Below are positions 1,815-61,071 of a DNA stretch of 64,000 nt, piece by piece. The stretch lies in the NCBI RefSeq assembly GCF_036700095.1, contig NZ_CP144918.1, positions 1,179,001 to 1,243,000 of the forward strand. Direction: 5' to 3'. The notes under the pieces were generated by a model that did not search any database, had not been told where the DNA came from, and saw nothing but the letters and a program-made list of their open reading frames with translations. The position numbers and the translations under genes were made by a program. The stretch comes from Pelagerythrobacter marensis. Its GTDB lineage: Bacteria; Pseudomonadota; Alphaproteobacteria; Sphingomonadales; Sphingomonadaceae. Position 1 is the stretch's first letter, and each line of letters opens with the position of its first letter.

Positions 1815-1839
1815 GACCCTGAAACAAGTTCAGGGTGAC
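1815..1839 (-). repeat. REP-like palindromic unit, family A (copy 1)
   Basis: A 25 bp unit whose core reads CCTGAAACAAGTTCAGG. It matches the ends of the 89 bp element at 60873-60961 with about two differences. It lies between ruvB and the GIY-YIG gene and is followed directly by three 21 bp tandem repeats that share its GTTCAGGGTGACGG half. Confidence 0.8.
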
Positions 1840-1924: not shown

Positions 1925-1949
1925 GTCATGCTGAACTCGTTTCAGCATC
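1925..1949 (+). repeat. REP-like unit, family A (left arm of GIY-YIG cassette 1)
   Basis: A 25 bp unit (core GCTGAACTCGTTTCAGC) in the opposite orientation to the unit at 2301-2325. Together they bracket the GIY-YIG reading frame as inverted arms. Substitutions in the two halves compensate each other, so the unit stays palindromic. Confidence 0.8.
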
Positions 1950-1972
1950 CATCCCCCGGCACCCTCCGCCCC

Positions 1973-2308
1973 ATGCCGTTCGAGCGCAACCCCTGCGTCT
2001 ACGTCCTCGCGAGCGGTCGCTACGGCACCCATTACATCGGCGTCACCAGCGATCTGATGCAGCGGCTCTGTCAACACCGCGAAGGAATCACGGGCGGATT
2101 CACGAAGCGATACCGGGTCCACCGCCTCGTTCGCTACGAAATGTTCGGCGACATGGAGGGGGCCATCTTGCGCGAGAGGCAGCTCAAACGCTGGCACCGG
2201 CAGTGGAAGATCAACCTGATCGAGCGGGACAACCCGCATTGGGCGGACCTGGCGGCAGGGCTCGGCTTCGAACCGCCGGCTTTGCGCGGGGGGCGCAATG
2301 GATCGTGA
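1973..2308 (+). CDS. GIY-YIG domain nuclease (cassette 1)
   Basis: A small protein of 111 residues made almost entirely of one GIY-YIG domain. The YVL...HYIG motif pair is near residues 9-22, followed by a conserved Arg (QRLCQHR), Glu (ERQLKRW) and a C-terminal INLIERDNPHW segment as in the YhbQ-like family. Such proteins are predicted single-strand-cutting DNA nucleases; substrates are mostly unknown. The chosen ATG at 1973 starts the domain; an upstream in-frame ATG lies inside the repeat arm. The TGA stop at 2306-2308 is supplied by the right repeat arm. The gene sits between ruvA and ruvB on the opposite strand and closely resembles the one at 25374-25673. Confidence 0.85.
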   Translation: MPFERNPCVYVLASGRYGTHYIGVTSDLMQRLCQHREGITGGFTKRYRVHRLVRYEMFGDMEGAILRERQLKRWHRQWKINLIERDNPHWADLAAGLGFEPPALRGGRNGS

Positions 2309-2325
2309 AACGCGTTCAGGATGAC
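2301..2325 (-). repeat. REP-like unit, family A (right arm of GIY-YIG cassette 1)
   Basis: Inverted partner of the unit at 1925-1949, core GTGAAACGCGTTCAGG. It contains the stop codon of the GIY-YIG gene, so the gene and repeat are physically fused. Confidence 0.8.
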
Positions 2326-8128: not shown

Positions 8129-8207
8129 TGAGTCCCAGCGCAGGCTGGGGCCTCGTGCAATCTGGCGCTTCGCCAGCGGCCTGAGGCCCCTGCCTTCGCA
8201 GGGGCCC
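8129..8207. repeat. Paired palindromic repeat, family C (copy 1)
   Basis: Two palindromes, AGTCCCAGCGCAGGCTGGG and GGCCCCTGCCTTCGCAGGGG, in inverted arrangement around a short spacer, just after ahpF. The same two-palindrome layout recurs near 24.4, 27.9 and 28.5 kb. It may also act as a transcript end between ahpF and the converging Smr gene. Confidence 0.75.
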
Positions 8208-15019: not shown

Positions 15020-15053
15020 GGCGGGCCTGTGCGAGCGGGCCCGCCAATTTTTT
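15020..15053 (+). terminator. Rho-independent terminator after the DUF4136 gene
   Basis: A GC stem (GGCGGGCC / GGCCCGCC with a GCGAGC-containing loop) followed by six T at 15048-15053. The terminal-inverted-repeat element begins at the very next base. Confidence 0.8.
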
Positions 15054-15166
15054 GGCGATTATGCCCTTTGCAAATCCGGCCAGGTCGTGTGGAGGAGGCC
15101 CACGAGAAGGGAACGGAACGCCTCTTGGTCTGCCGTATGGCCGAATTTGCCAACGGTATAATCGCC
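15054..15166. mobile_element. 113 bp terminal-inverted-repeat element (empty copy)
   Basis: Ends of about 29 bp form an imperfect inverted repeat (left GGCGATTATGCCCTTTGCAA, right, read in reverse, GGCGATTATACCGTTGGCAA). The centre reads GTCGTGTGGAGGA...CGGAACGCCTCTTGGTCTGC. A second copy with the same ends is at 60818-61023. No coding capacity is seen. It behaves like a miniature inverted-repeat element placed directly after a terminator. Confidence 0.7.
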
Positions 15167-15229
15167 TTTTTTAGCGCCGCGCGCCTCTTGTCGCTGTCTT
15201 CACCAGCGCGCATCTAACGTTGCGTTGCC

Positions 15230-24377: not shown

Positions 24378-24455
24378 GAGCCCCAGCGAAAGCTGGGGCC
24401 TCGGGCAACCCGGCGCTCCGCTTGTGGCACGAGGTCCCAGCCTTCGCTGGGACTC
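24378..24455. repeat. Paired palindromic repeat, family C (copy 2)
   Basis: GAGCCCCAGCGAAAGCTGGG and GGTCCCAGCCTTCGCTGGGA form an inverted pair between dnaA and the ThiF-like gene, matching the layout at 8129-8207. Confidence 0.75.
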
Positions 24456-24500: not shown

Positions 24501-25316
24501 ATGGCCCTGCCCCCCGACCGCATCGACCGCTTCGCGCGCCATATCGTCCTGCCCGAGATCGGCGGGGCGGGGCAGGTCGCGCTCGCCGGGGCGCATGTCG
24601 CGCTGGTCGGCCTGGGCGGGATCGGCAGCCCGGCGCTGCAATATCTCGCCGGTGCCGGCGTCGGGCGCTTCACCCTGATCGACGACGGGCGAGTCGAACT
24701 GTCCAACCTGCAGCGCCAGACGCTCTATGCGGAGCGGGACGTGGGGCATGGCAAGGCGGTGTCGGCGCGGCGCTGGCTCGCCAATTTCGACGGAGCGATC
24801 GCGGTCGCGCTGGTCGACCGCCGCCTGACTCGCGACAATGCCGGCGCCGCGATCGCGGGGGTCGATCTCGTGCTCGACGGGACGGACAATTTCGCCACCC
24901 GGCTTGCAGTGTCCGATGCCTGCGTGGCGTCCGGCATCCCGCTCCTCTCGGCCGCCGTCGGGCGCTTTCAGGGGCAGGTCGGCGCTTTCGCCGGGCACTT
25001 GCCGGGCGAGGCCTGCTACCGCTGCTTCGTCGGCGACGCTTTCGATGCCGACGACTGCGATACTTGCGCGGAGGACGGGATGCTCGGCGCCATGGCAGGC
25101 TGGACCGGCACCTTCGCCGCCATGCAGGCCGTGCGCGTCCTGCTCGCGGGCAAGGCCGCTTTCGGCGATCCGCAATGGGGCCGCTTGCACCTTCTCGACG
25201 GCCTCAAGGCGGAGATGCGCACGCTGCGCATCGCGAGGGACCCGGCCTGCCGCGCGTGCAGTTCTGCCGGAAAAGCGTCCGACGATGGATCCCCGCCTTC
25301 GCGCGGATGGCAATAA
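24501..25316 (+). CDS. ThiF/MoeB/HesA-family adenylyltransferase
   Basis: An E1-like enzyme of 271 residues that adenylates the C-terminal Gly-Gly of a sulfur-carrier protein (MoaD or ThiS type). The nucleotide-binding motif GLGGIGSPALQYLAGAGVG is near residue 35, the catalytic Asp in DGTDNFATR, and Cys pairs in CYRC and CRAC should hold zinc. The last residues (DDGSPPSRGWQ) are encoded by a family B palindromic repeat at 25286-25311, so the native C-terminus has been replaced or extended. MoeB or ThiF identity cannot be settled here because no carrier gene is nearby. Confidence 0.88.
   Translation: MALPPDRIDRFARHIVLPEIGGAGQVALAGAHVALVGLGGIGSPALQYLAGAGVGRFTLIDDGRVELSNLQRQTLYAERDVGHGKAVSARRWLANFDGAIAVALVDRRLTRDNAGAAIAGVDLVLDGTDNFATRLAVSDACVASGIPLLSAAVGRFQGQVGAFAGHLPGEACYRCFVGDAFDADDCDTCAEDGMLGAMAGWTGTFAAMQAVRVLLAGKAAFGDPQWGRLHLLDGLKAEMRTLRIARDPACRACSSAGKASDDGSPPSRGWQ
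25286..25311 (-). repeat. REP-like unit, family B (inside the ThiF-like gene 3' end)
   Basis: A 26 bp unit (GGATCCCCGCCTTCGCGCGG core) overlapping the final codons and ending just before the TAA of the ThiF-like gene. Confidence 0.75.
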
Positions 25317-25326
25317 GAGCAGCAGT

Positions 25327-25352
25327 GTCATTCCCGCGAACGCGGGAATCCA
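25327..25352 (+). repeat. REP-like unit, family B (left arm of GIY-YIG cassette 2)
   Basis: A 26 bp unit with a perfect TTCCCGCGAACGCGGGAA palindrome, in inverted orientation to the unit at 25678-25703. Confidence 0.8.
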
Positions 25353-25373
25353 GGGCCCGGCTTGCCCGTCGGT

Positions 25374-25673
25374 TCAGCGGTTCAGGTCGTACCAGAGATC
25401 GCGCCATTCCGGGTTGCCGCTTTCGATCAGCTCGATCTTCCATGCGCGCCGCCATTTCTTCAGCGCCTTCTCGCGCGCGATGGCCTCGTGAATATCGCCG
25501 AACGGCTCAAGATGCACCAGACGGGTCACGCGGTACTGCCTGGTGAAGCCGGGAACCTTGCCGCTGCGATGTTCGTCCATCCGCCCGGCAAGGCGGGATG
25601 TGAGACCGATATAAAGCGTGCCGCGCTTCCGGCTCGCGAGGATGTAGACCCAACAATAGGGTTCGTCGGTCAC
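25374..25673 (-). CDS. GIY-YIG domain nuclease (cassette 2)
   Basis: A 99-residue GIY-YIG protein (VYILAS...LYIGLTS near residues 9-22, then RMDEHR, EKALKKW and IELIESGNPEW). It aligns along its whole length with the protein at 1973-2308, with identical or similar residues at most positions. It starts with GTG at 25673, only 4 bp from the right repeat arm, with no clear ribosome binding site. It lies between two family B units in inverted orientation, the same architecture as cassette 1 with a different repeat family. Predicted DNA nuclease; target unknown. Confidence 0.85.
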   Translation of the reverse strand: MTDEPYCWVYILASRKRGTLYIGLTSRLAGRMDEHRSGKVPGFTRQYRVTRLVHLEPFGDIHEAIAREKALKKWRRAWKIELIESGNPEWRDLWYDLNR

Positions 25674-25677
25674 GCCG

Positions 25678-25703
25678 TGGATCCCCGCCTTCGCGGGGAT
25701 GAC
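25678..25703 (-). repeat. REP-like unit, family B (right arm of GIY-YIG cassette 2)
   Basis: A 26 bp unit (core ATCCCCGCCTTCGCGGGGAT), the inverted partner of 25327-25352 with about three substitutions, which fall symmetrically and preserve the palindrome. Confidence 0.8.
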
Positions 25704-28520: not shown

Positions 28521-28657
28521 CGAGTCCCAGCGCAGGCTGGGACCTCGTGCTATCGGGCGACACGCCAGCGGCCTGAGGCCCCAGCCTACGCTGGGGCTCG
28601 GGAAGGTATCGGACATAGCGCCAACGGCCCGAGGCCCCAGCCTGCGCTGGGGCTCGG
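28521..28657. repeat. Palindromic repeat cluster, family C (copy 4, three palindromes)
   Basis: AGTCCCAGCGCAGGCTGGGA, then GGCCCCAGCCTACGCTGGGG, then GGCCCCAGCCTGCGCTGGGG separated by a GCGGCCTGAG or ACGGCCCGAG motif. The last copy ends 6 bp before the dapE stop. Confidence 0.75.
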
Positions 28658-60724: not shown

Positions 60725-60813
60725 AATGTCACCGCCGAGACCCCCCTCCCGTCCAAGCGGCAGGTGATACGATCCCGAAGGGCCTCCGCTCAATGCGAGC
60801 GGAGGCCTTTTTT
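60725..60813 (+). ncRNA. Candidate stress-regulated small RNA
   Basis: About 89 nt would be made from the EcfG-like promoter to the terminator at 60781-60813. It contains a C-rich single-stranded-looking stretch (GAGACCCCCCTCCCGTCC) that could pair with ribosome binding sites. It has no reading frame of note. No known RNA family is recognised. Confidence 0.35.
60781..60813 (+). terminator. Rho-independent terminator
   Basis: Perfect 10 bp stem GGCCTCCGCT / AGCGGAGGCC with a 7 nt loop, then six T. The terminal-inverted-repeat element starts 5 bp later. Confidence 0.85.
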
Positions 60814-60817
60814 CTTT

Positions 60818-61023
60818 GGCGACTATGCCGTTGGCAAATCCGGCCAGGTCGTGTGGAGGAAGCCCATCCCTTGTCATCCTGAACTTGTTTCAGGATCCAT
60901 TCTTCAAATCGCGCCGTCCTTGCTGGTGGCACGATAGATCCTGAAACAAGTTCAGGATGACGAAAAGGGGCCGGAGCGCCTCTTTGTCTACCGTATGGCC
61001 GGATTTGCAAAGGGCATAATCGC
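60818..61023. mobile_element. Terminal-inverted-repeat element, copy carrying a nested insertion
   Basis: Same ends as the 113 bp element at 15054-15166 (left GGCGACTATGCCGTTGGCAA, right in reverse GGCGATTATGCCCTTTGCAA) and the same inner GTCGTGTGGAGGA and GCGCCTCTTTGTCTACC. It is 206 bp because the 89 bp family A element lies in its centre. Confidence 0.7.
60873..60961. mobile_element. 89 bp family A element with perfect 25 bp inverted ends
   Basis: The two ends (60873-60897 and 60937-60961) are exact inverted copies whose core is CCTGAACTTGTTTCAGG. The 39 bp centre is unrelated. The ends match the arms of GIY-YIG cassette 1, so this looks like a nuclease-free derivative. Confidence 0.8.
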
Positions 61024-61071
61024 CTTTCCTTTGCCGTTGCAACTTCGTCTTCGGCGGGCGGCGGGAAGGGG

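Follow-up and report, generated by a model that had tools for sequence, protein, structure and literature searches.

The closest described counterpart of the locus reported here is the system of RAYTs (REP-associated tyrosine transposases, IS200/IS605-like) and GTAG-tagged REPs or REPINs, in which a nuclease gene lies between REPs, gene-less REP dimers occur in the same genome and the REP carries a foot tetranucleotide (described in part in the accessible text of PMC3733652). CGTC-tagged REPs are, according to the accessible text of Di Nocera et al. 2013 (PMC3733652), hairpins with a CGTC or TGTC foot, a stem of 8-9 bp, a loop of 4-5 nt and a CCA tail, which occur mostly as HH dimers, mainly in alpha-Proteobacteria, make up families 1-4 (including Neisseria dRS3 and Rickettsia RPE-4/RPE-6) and are mostly intergenic, often close to stop codons. 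That text states that they are 'apparently' without 'a dedicated transposase' and contains no occurrence of GIY-YIG. Full-text searches of a largely open-access literature, in which listed papers were judged by title and opening of the abstract, showed no link between GIY-YIG proteins and CGTC REPs, nor did the accessible text of PMC12306157, and prior notice is possible.

The window analysed here, the whole 64-kb stretch of DNA, contains a small GIY-YIG nuclease gene at 25374-25673 on the minus strand (99 aa, GTG start, PF01541 at 58.7 bits, above the cut-off) that is framed by two B-type CGTC-REP units. One, GTCATCCCCGCGAAGGCGGGGATCCA, lies on the 5' side of the gene at 25678-25703 (minus strand), 4 nt before the GTG start; the other, GTCATTCCCGCGAACGCGGGAATCCA, lies inverted on the 3' side at 25327-25352 (plus strand). 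Both units are 26 nt long and exact, with GTC, an 8-bp stem, a 4-nt loop and a CCA tail, and for each of them only 1 of 200 shuffled sequences folded equally well. Based on the layout in relatives and on conservation that stops at the foot, we propose an element spanning 25327-25703 and consisting of a REP, the nuclease gene and an inverted REP, with the GTC feet outermost. A third B-type unit outside the element, at 25286-25311 (minus strand), is decayed: it retains 24 of 26 positions, with two mismatches, and its fold is less remarkable (10 of 200 shuffles equally good). Scanned on both strands with one 26-nt B unit and a tolerance of 6 mismatches, the window yields no B-type unit besides these three. 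Within a dimer or element (L226-L265 and the window element), one unit often departs from its partner at a single compensated stem pair, TCCCGC against CCCCGC for instance, as though full identity were being avoided.

An earlier note on this DNA had described the framing of the gene by two inverted B units, and its coordinates proved exact; the further unit that it reported at 25286-25311 is present but degenerate. The order unit (-), unit (+), gene, unit (-) that it gave for two loci in the window holds at both, the downstream A unit of the second being degenerate. This second locus (L004) comprises a small GIY-YIG gene at 1973-2308 (plus strand), an A-type unit upstream at 1925-1951 (plus strand), a degenerate A-type unit downstream at about 2299-2325 (minus strand) and an outer A-type unit at 1816-1839 (minus strand). 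Across the organism's own genome (G000), PF01541 matches six places. Five are small GIY-YIG genes and all five stand between two inverted hairpins: B type at the window gene, a B variant at L003, A type (CTGAAC) at L004, D type (CCCCGG) at L006 and CCCAGC hairpins with a GAG foot at L001. The sixth place, L005, within a 666-aa open frame that we take to be UvrC-like, has no such hairpin flanks. The Pfam matches of the five small proteins are GIY-YIG, one of the five also matching T5orf172, and no NCBIfam model scored above its cut-off. The genome-wide count of units proposed in the earlier note gave, under strict patterns, 18 A and 14 B units, along with 13 D units, and no match to reversed control patterns. 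Six strict CCCAGC hairpins with GAG feet, the type that flanks L001, also occur in the window (8130-8154, 24378-24455 and 28522-28655), together with one more CCCAGC hairpin (27974) and two of CCCTGC type (8188 and 27920).

The flanking hairpins match the description of CGTC-tagged REPs in the accessible text of Di Nocera et al. 2013 (PMC3733652). Both window units carry a TGTC foot, and in classes A-D the base preceding GTC is mostly C or T (0.61-1.46 bits); stem, loop and tail of the window units (8 bp, 4 nt, CCA) have the published shape; and the units form repeated families with outward-facing dimers (14 B, 18 A and 13 D units in the own genome). In a set of 40 dimers from relatives and the own genome, chosen from listed pairs, the gene-less dimers share identical outer feet and orientation with the gene-bearing elements. 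Nucleases at L152, L153 and L159 have GAAGCAATCC/ATTGCTTC-type repeats nearby, which presumably resemble the CGTC-4 (RPE-4) family.

With a RAYT the locus shares the architecture of a gene flanked by genome-repeated REPs, not homology. The enzyme here has a GIY-YIG fold and about 100 aa whereas a RAYT is an HUH tyrosine transposase, and the repeats are CGTC-tagged whereas those of RAYTs are GTAG-tagged. Instead of an HUH motif, a catalytic tyrosine and IS200/IS605 homology, both the Pfam matches and the nearest folds are GIY-YIG. The window nuclease belongs to a different enzyme family and is therefore no RAYT, although it would work like a RAYT/REP system. By contrast with the published CGTC REPs, for which the accessible text of PMC3733652 reports no associated enzyme, we propose a dedicated one: at a probability of roughly 0.7, the small GIY-YIG protein is the nuclease of the CGTC-tagged REPs, in a partnership resembling that of RAYTs and REPs with an unrelated enzyme.

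The association between gene and flanks is real and general. A search with an alignment of the nuclease (A1) at E<=1e-10 matched 38 of 59 related genomes, and a scan of genome contigs, in which 80 of 507 confirmed loci were kept among the matches listed, gave matches, among those listed, in Proteobacteria, Zixibacteria, Planctomycetes, Dehalococcoidia and other taxa. When the left flank was aligned with the reverse-complemented right flank (113 of 116 loci used), a score of at least 15 was reached at 88 of 113 loci, compared with 54 of 332 pairs when flanks were swapped and 2 of 97 when distal flanks were used. We labelled 166 loci, 60 added regions and a few duplicate entries such as L003 and L007 among them and the weakest A1 matches left out, according to the hairpin closest to the gene, up to about 130-150 bp away, requiring neither foot nor orientation. 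A classified hairpin was present on both sides at 109 loci, on one side at 32 and on neither at 25, several of the last carrying other hairpins, and 105 of the 109 two-sided loci had the same class on both sides (shuffle mean 26.4, maximum 42). Eight weak matches from the same genomes, L169-L176, which we regard as other GIY-YIG proteins, all lacked a neighbouring GTC-tagged unit (0/8). In a 464-kb sample of the own genome that includes the window, random 290-bp placements met a hairpin on either side in 814 of 20,000 cases and the same class on both sides in 8 of 20,000, which bears out the claim of the earlier note that chance association is unlikely; the random, distal, swapped and other-GIY-YIG controls together rule out chance proximity. 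Among five opened records, relatives of the nuclease stand beside CGTC-type hairpins in four (Azospirillum lipoferum, Sinorhizobium meliloti, Novosphingobium aromaticivorans and Neisseria gonorrhoeae), and the relative in the fifth, from Planktothrix, has no adjoining CGTC-type hairpin. Phage records gave only three weak matches to the nuclease. Two records (H5 and H7; NZ_CP119142.1 and NZ_CP119140.1) are Neisseria gonorrhoeae 'plasmid' entries of about 2.17 Mb, chromosome-like in size.

Which hairpin class a gene carries follows its protein type. Tree and neighbour tests covered 157 distinct proteins (at least 90 bits over at least 75 positions), 128 of which have one class. On the tree of the 157 proteins, a comparison with flanking units that the earlier note had suggested, the five main hairpin classes require 29 changes against a shuffled mean of 69.7, with none of 200 shuffles as low; the tree itself is weakly resolved, 95 of its 154 inner branches being open. 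For 103 of the 128 proteins with one class, the closest relative from another genome carries that class too (shuffle mean 29, maximum 49), and when labels are shuffled only within genomes, agreement is 52 of 60 against a mean of 18.1 and a maximum of 36 in 5,000 shuffles. The correlation of nuclease clade with palindrome family across genomes, on which the earlier note had staked its argument, is therefore present. With neighbours capped at 75% identity, agreement is 102/128 and, in the within-genome test, 51/60; capped at 65%, it is 83/128 and 34/60, the shuffle maxima being 47 and 32. Cross-genome pairs at 70% identity or more share a class in 165 of 166 cases, and those at 40-45% identity in 259 of 1,924. 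Shared ancestry of hairpin class and protein forms part of the pattern. Close vertical descent alone is ruled out, since capped neighbours (65-80%) and within-genome shuffles still agree far above the shuffled expectation.

When protein columns were ranked by their information on hairpin class, residue 73 (z 26) and residue 75 (z 15.8) led, followed by the next column at 8.0; the third stem pair, counted from the loop, varies among families B, C, T and G. With C at this stem position residue 73 is K in 42 of 42 rows; with A it is A in 17 of 17, one further row having a deletion there; with T it is K in seven rows and R in the eighth; and in the single row with G it is D. Residue 75 is K in 7 of 8 rows with T stems and R (25), N (11), K (3), H (2) or A (1) with C stems, and loci with one C and one T unit have K73 and K75 in four of four cases; the window protein has K73 and R75. 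The L001 site, syntenic in G000, G002, G003 and G006, has mainly CCCAGC stems (one CCCTGC) and A73 in G000, and CCCCGC stems and K73 in the other three, so that residue and stem base change together; related genes in G008, G021 and G031 also combine CCCCGC stems with K73. GAG-footed matches number 17 with A, 3 with T and 0 with C in 464 kb of G000 (one hairpin may match on both strands), and one each with A, T and C in the G006 sample; the latter are too few for comparison and therefore cannot show that the family differs from that of G000, and a genome-wide switch of the GAG-footed family was set aside. Seven pairs that are independent on the tree contrast A with not-A stems; the three on supported branches agree (sign test p 0.25).

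A fresh set was assembled from 58 viral-contig and plasmid-collection loci, giving 48 distinct proteins once 8 low scores and 2 duplicates were left out, and in 30 of the 48 the strict search detected at least one flanking GTC-tagged hairpin. Residue 73 in this set was K in 16 and H in 2 of 18 rows with C stems, and with A stems it was Thr twice rather than Ala, one row being unreadable. The covariation is consistent with a fair rule by which residue 73 would be K for C and a small residue for A. Residues 64-68 read ARxFE at 6 of 8 GAG-footed loci and AIxRE at 99 of 112 GTC-scored loci, and may form a second recognition module matched to the foot (GTC or GAG), although the ARxFE proteins are probably one clade. 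The co-evolution of protein and target palindrome put forward in the earlier note is supported by nearest-neighbour class together with residues 73 and 75, and we consider it very likely that the nuclease and its REPs form one functional, co-evolving unit.

Positions Y10, Y21, R31, H35, E68 and N87, which we take, by their I-TevI roles, to be catalytic, are present in the window protein and conserved in at least 90% of 80 rows. Its structure model (pLDDT 92.2) has UPF0213 and Slx1 as nearest folds (best Foldseek E 0.002), and UPF0213 (BH0048, EF2693) and Slx1 are its closest solved sequences and folds; the entry title of Slx1 describes it as a branched-DNA nuclease. The small GIY-YIG protein showed no strand-joining domain. 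We consider that the protein probably cuts its REPs and, with less confidence, that it mobilises them. It would recognise its own REP partly through residues 73-75, reading the third stem pair from the loop as the covariation suggests, and, with intact GIY-YIG positions and these nearest folds, would nick or cut at or near the foot or hairpin of a unit made of REP, gene and inverted REP with GTC feet outermost. Given the lack of a strand-joining domain, host replication and repair would copy or reinsert the palindrome-bounded DNA, and gene-less dimers in the same orientation would be non-autonomous copies.

Evidence on mobility comes from element boundaries, related sites and repeat numbers. 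In classes A-D conservation drops to background just beyond the foot (the foot is part of the search pattern, the preceding base is not). Two unrelated, non-syntenic sites, one occupied in G000, G005 and G006 and the other (site 1) in G003 and G004, share about 417 bp of homologous A element, whose ends lie 14 and 2 bp beyond the hairpins when G000 is aligned with G003. Site 1 is also empty in G001, and in G002 only 3 bp, without a REP, separate the flank matches that enclose about 546 bp in G003; the gain is therefore larger than the element, and its ends are not clean. At site 2, that of G000, G005 and G006, the gap in G004 holds other sequence, and it therefore offers no clean empty site. 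Matches in relatives to the D nuclease site leave gaps of widely differing length. Inserts at D-dimer sites are larger than the dimer; at one of these sites G002 and G004 show a 5-bp overlap of the flank matches, possibly a short duplication or microhomology, and no consistent duplication was established. D-type dimers at L266 and L267 lie inside larger inserts, and the orthologous sites in relatives are without the insert; the L267 dimer is enclosed by an outer inverted repeat with GTCGGTTTG, of which L266 has a looser version. An imperfect palindromic repeat occurs in the window at 15048-15169 and 60812-61027, and the second copy holds near its centre a gene-less A-type REP dimer (60873-60961), a proposed non-autonomous form, that the first is without, making an empty/occupied pair inside the window. 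Further copies of the 60812-61027 palindrome amount to one short fragment in the own genome and none in six congeners; with an A dimer in another palindrome's centre met once, and copies few, no targeting rule is claimed.

Repeat numbers were compared by Fisher tests on genomes that are not independent, scoring at least three units beyond the gene's own flanks. This level was reached for A units in 16/17 genomes with an A nuclease and 6/42 without (1e-8), for B units in 14/23 and 11/36 (0.03), for D units in 6/13 and 2/46 (8e-4) and for C units in 5/9 and 4/50 (2e-3). The only two strict C' units of G006 and the only two strict A units of G030 each frame the nuclease of their genome. Orphan repeats without a matching nuclease number, for example, 68 B in G007, 54 B in G043, 49 C' in G016, 36 D in G033 and 19 C' in G001, and G043 and G001 have no nuclease match whatsoever at E<=1e-10.

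Some GIY-YIG enzymes are homing endonucleases, and the freestanding ones share with the present case a GIY-YIG domain and a mobile gene. Such an enzyme might cut REPs that spread by other means, its gene being copied into cut REP dimers by recombination; elements and gene-less dimers agree in outer feet and orientation, and therefore the gene could have entered a dimer spacer. We regard this origin as unlikely: the gene here, unlike that of freestanding homing endonucleases, lies between two inverted hairpins that belong to its own repeat family; relatives without the gene at site 1, including the one well resolved empty site (G002), show no REP, which disfavours homing into an existing dimer there; and the count of units other than those flanking the gene tracks the matching nuclease class. 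A shade less probable still is a domesticated host factor for opening or trimming the hairpins or cruciforms that REPs form, with its gene merely near its targets. The nearest folds, UPF0213 and Slx1, would suit such a role, as would the genes that several relatives have in common at one site, but genomes hold up to five strong copies, some with stops or partial, the A unit of about 417 bp lies at different sites, and the repeat class around most copies corresponds to the type of protein that the copy encodes. That the REPs are simply common intergenic hairpins lying near these genes by chance, a view that their published location between genes and near stop codons would favour (PMC3733652, accessible text), is extremely improbable given the random, distal and other-GIY-YIG controls and the covariation of class and residue.

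Taking the small GIY-YIG protein as the dedicated nuclease of the CGTC-tagged REPs, we lean slightly towards a still wider view, in which a nuclease of about 100 aa and two inverted hairpins, with no strand-joining enzyme, would constitute a minimal, widespread and previously unrecognised class of mobile element. This class would have created, and would still maintain, the CGTC-REP superfamily, including dRS3 and RPE, with its target specified by a short code of amino acids (residues 73 and 75 for the third stem pair and possibly 64-68 for the foot). CGTC REPs occur in many bacteria, and a specific enzyme candidate makes their origin testable at the bench. The nuclease would be a second, unrelated enzyme in a REP/RAYT-like architecture and would provide a naturally occurring series of hairpin-associated nucleases in which a few residues appear to determine the target. 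This protein may be the enzyme that had been missing for a common family of DNA repeats in bacteria.
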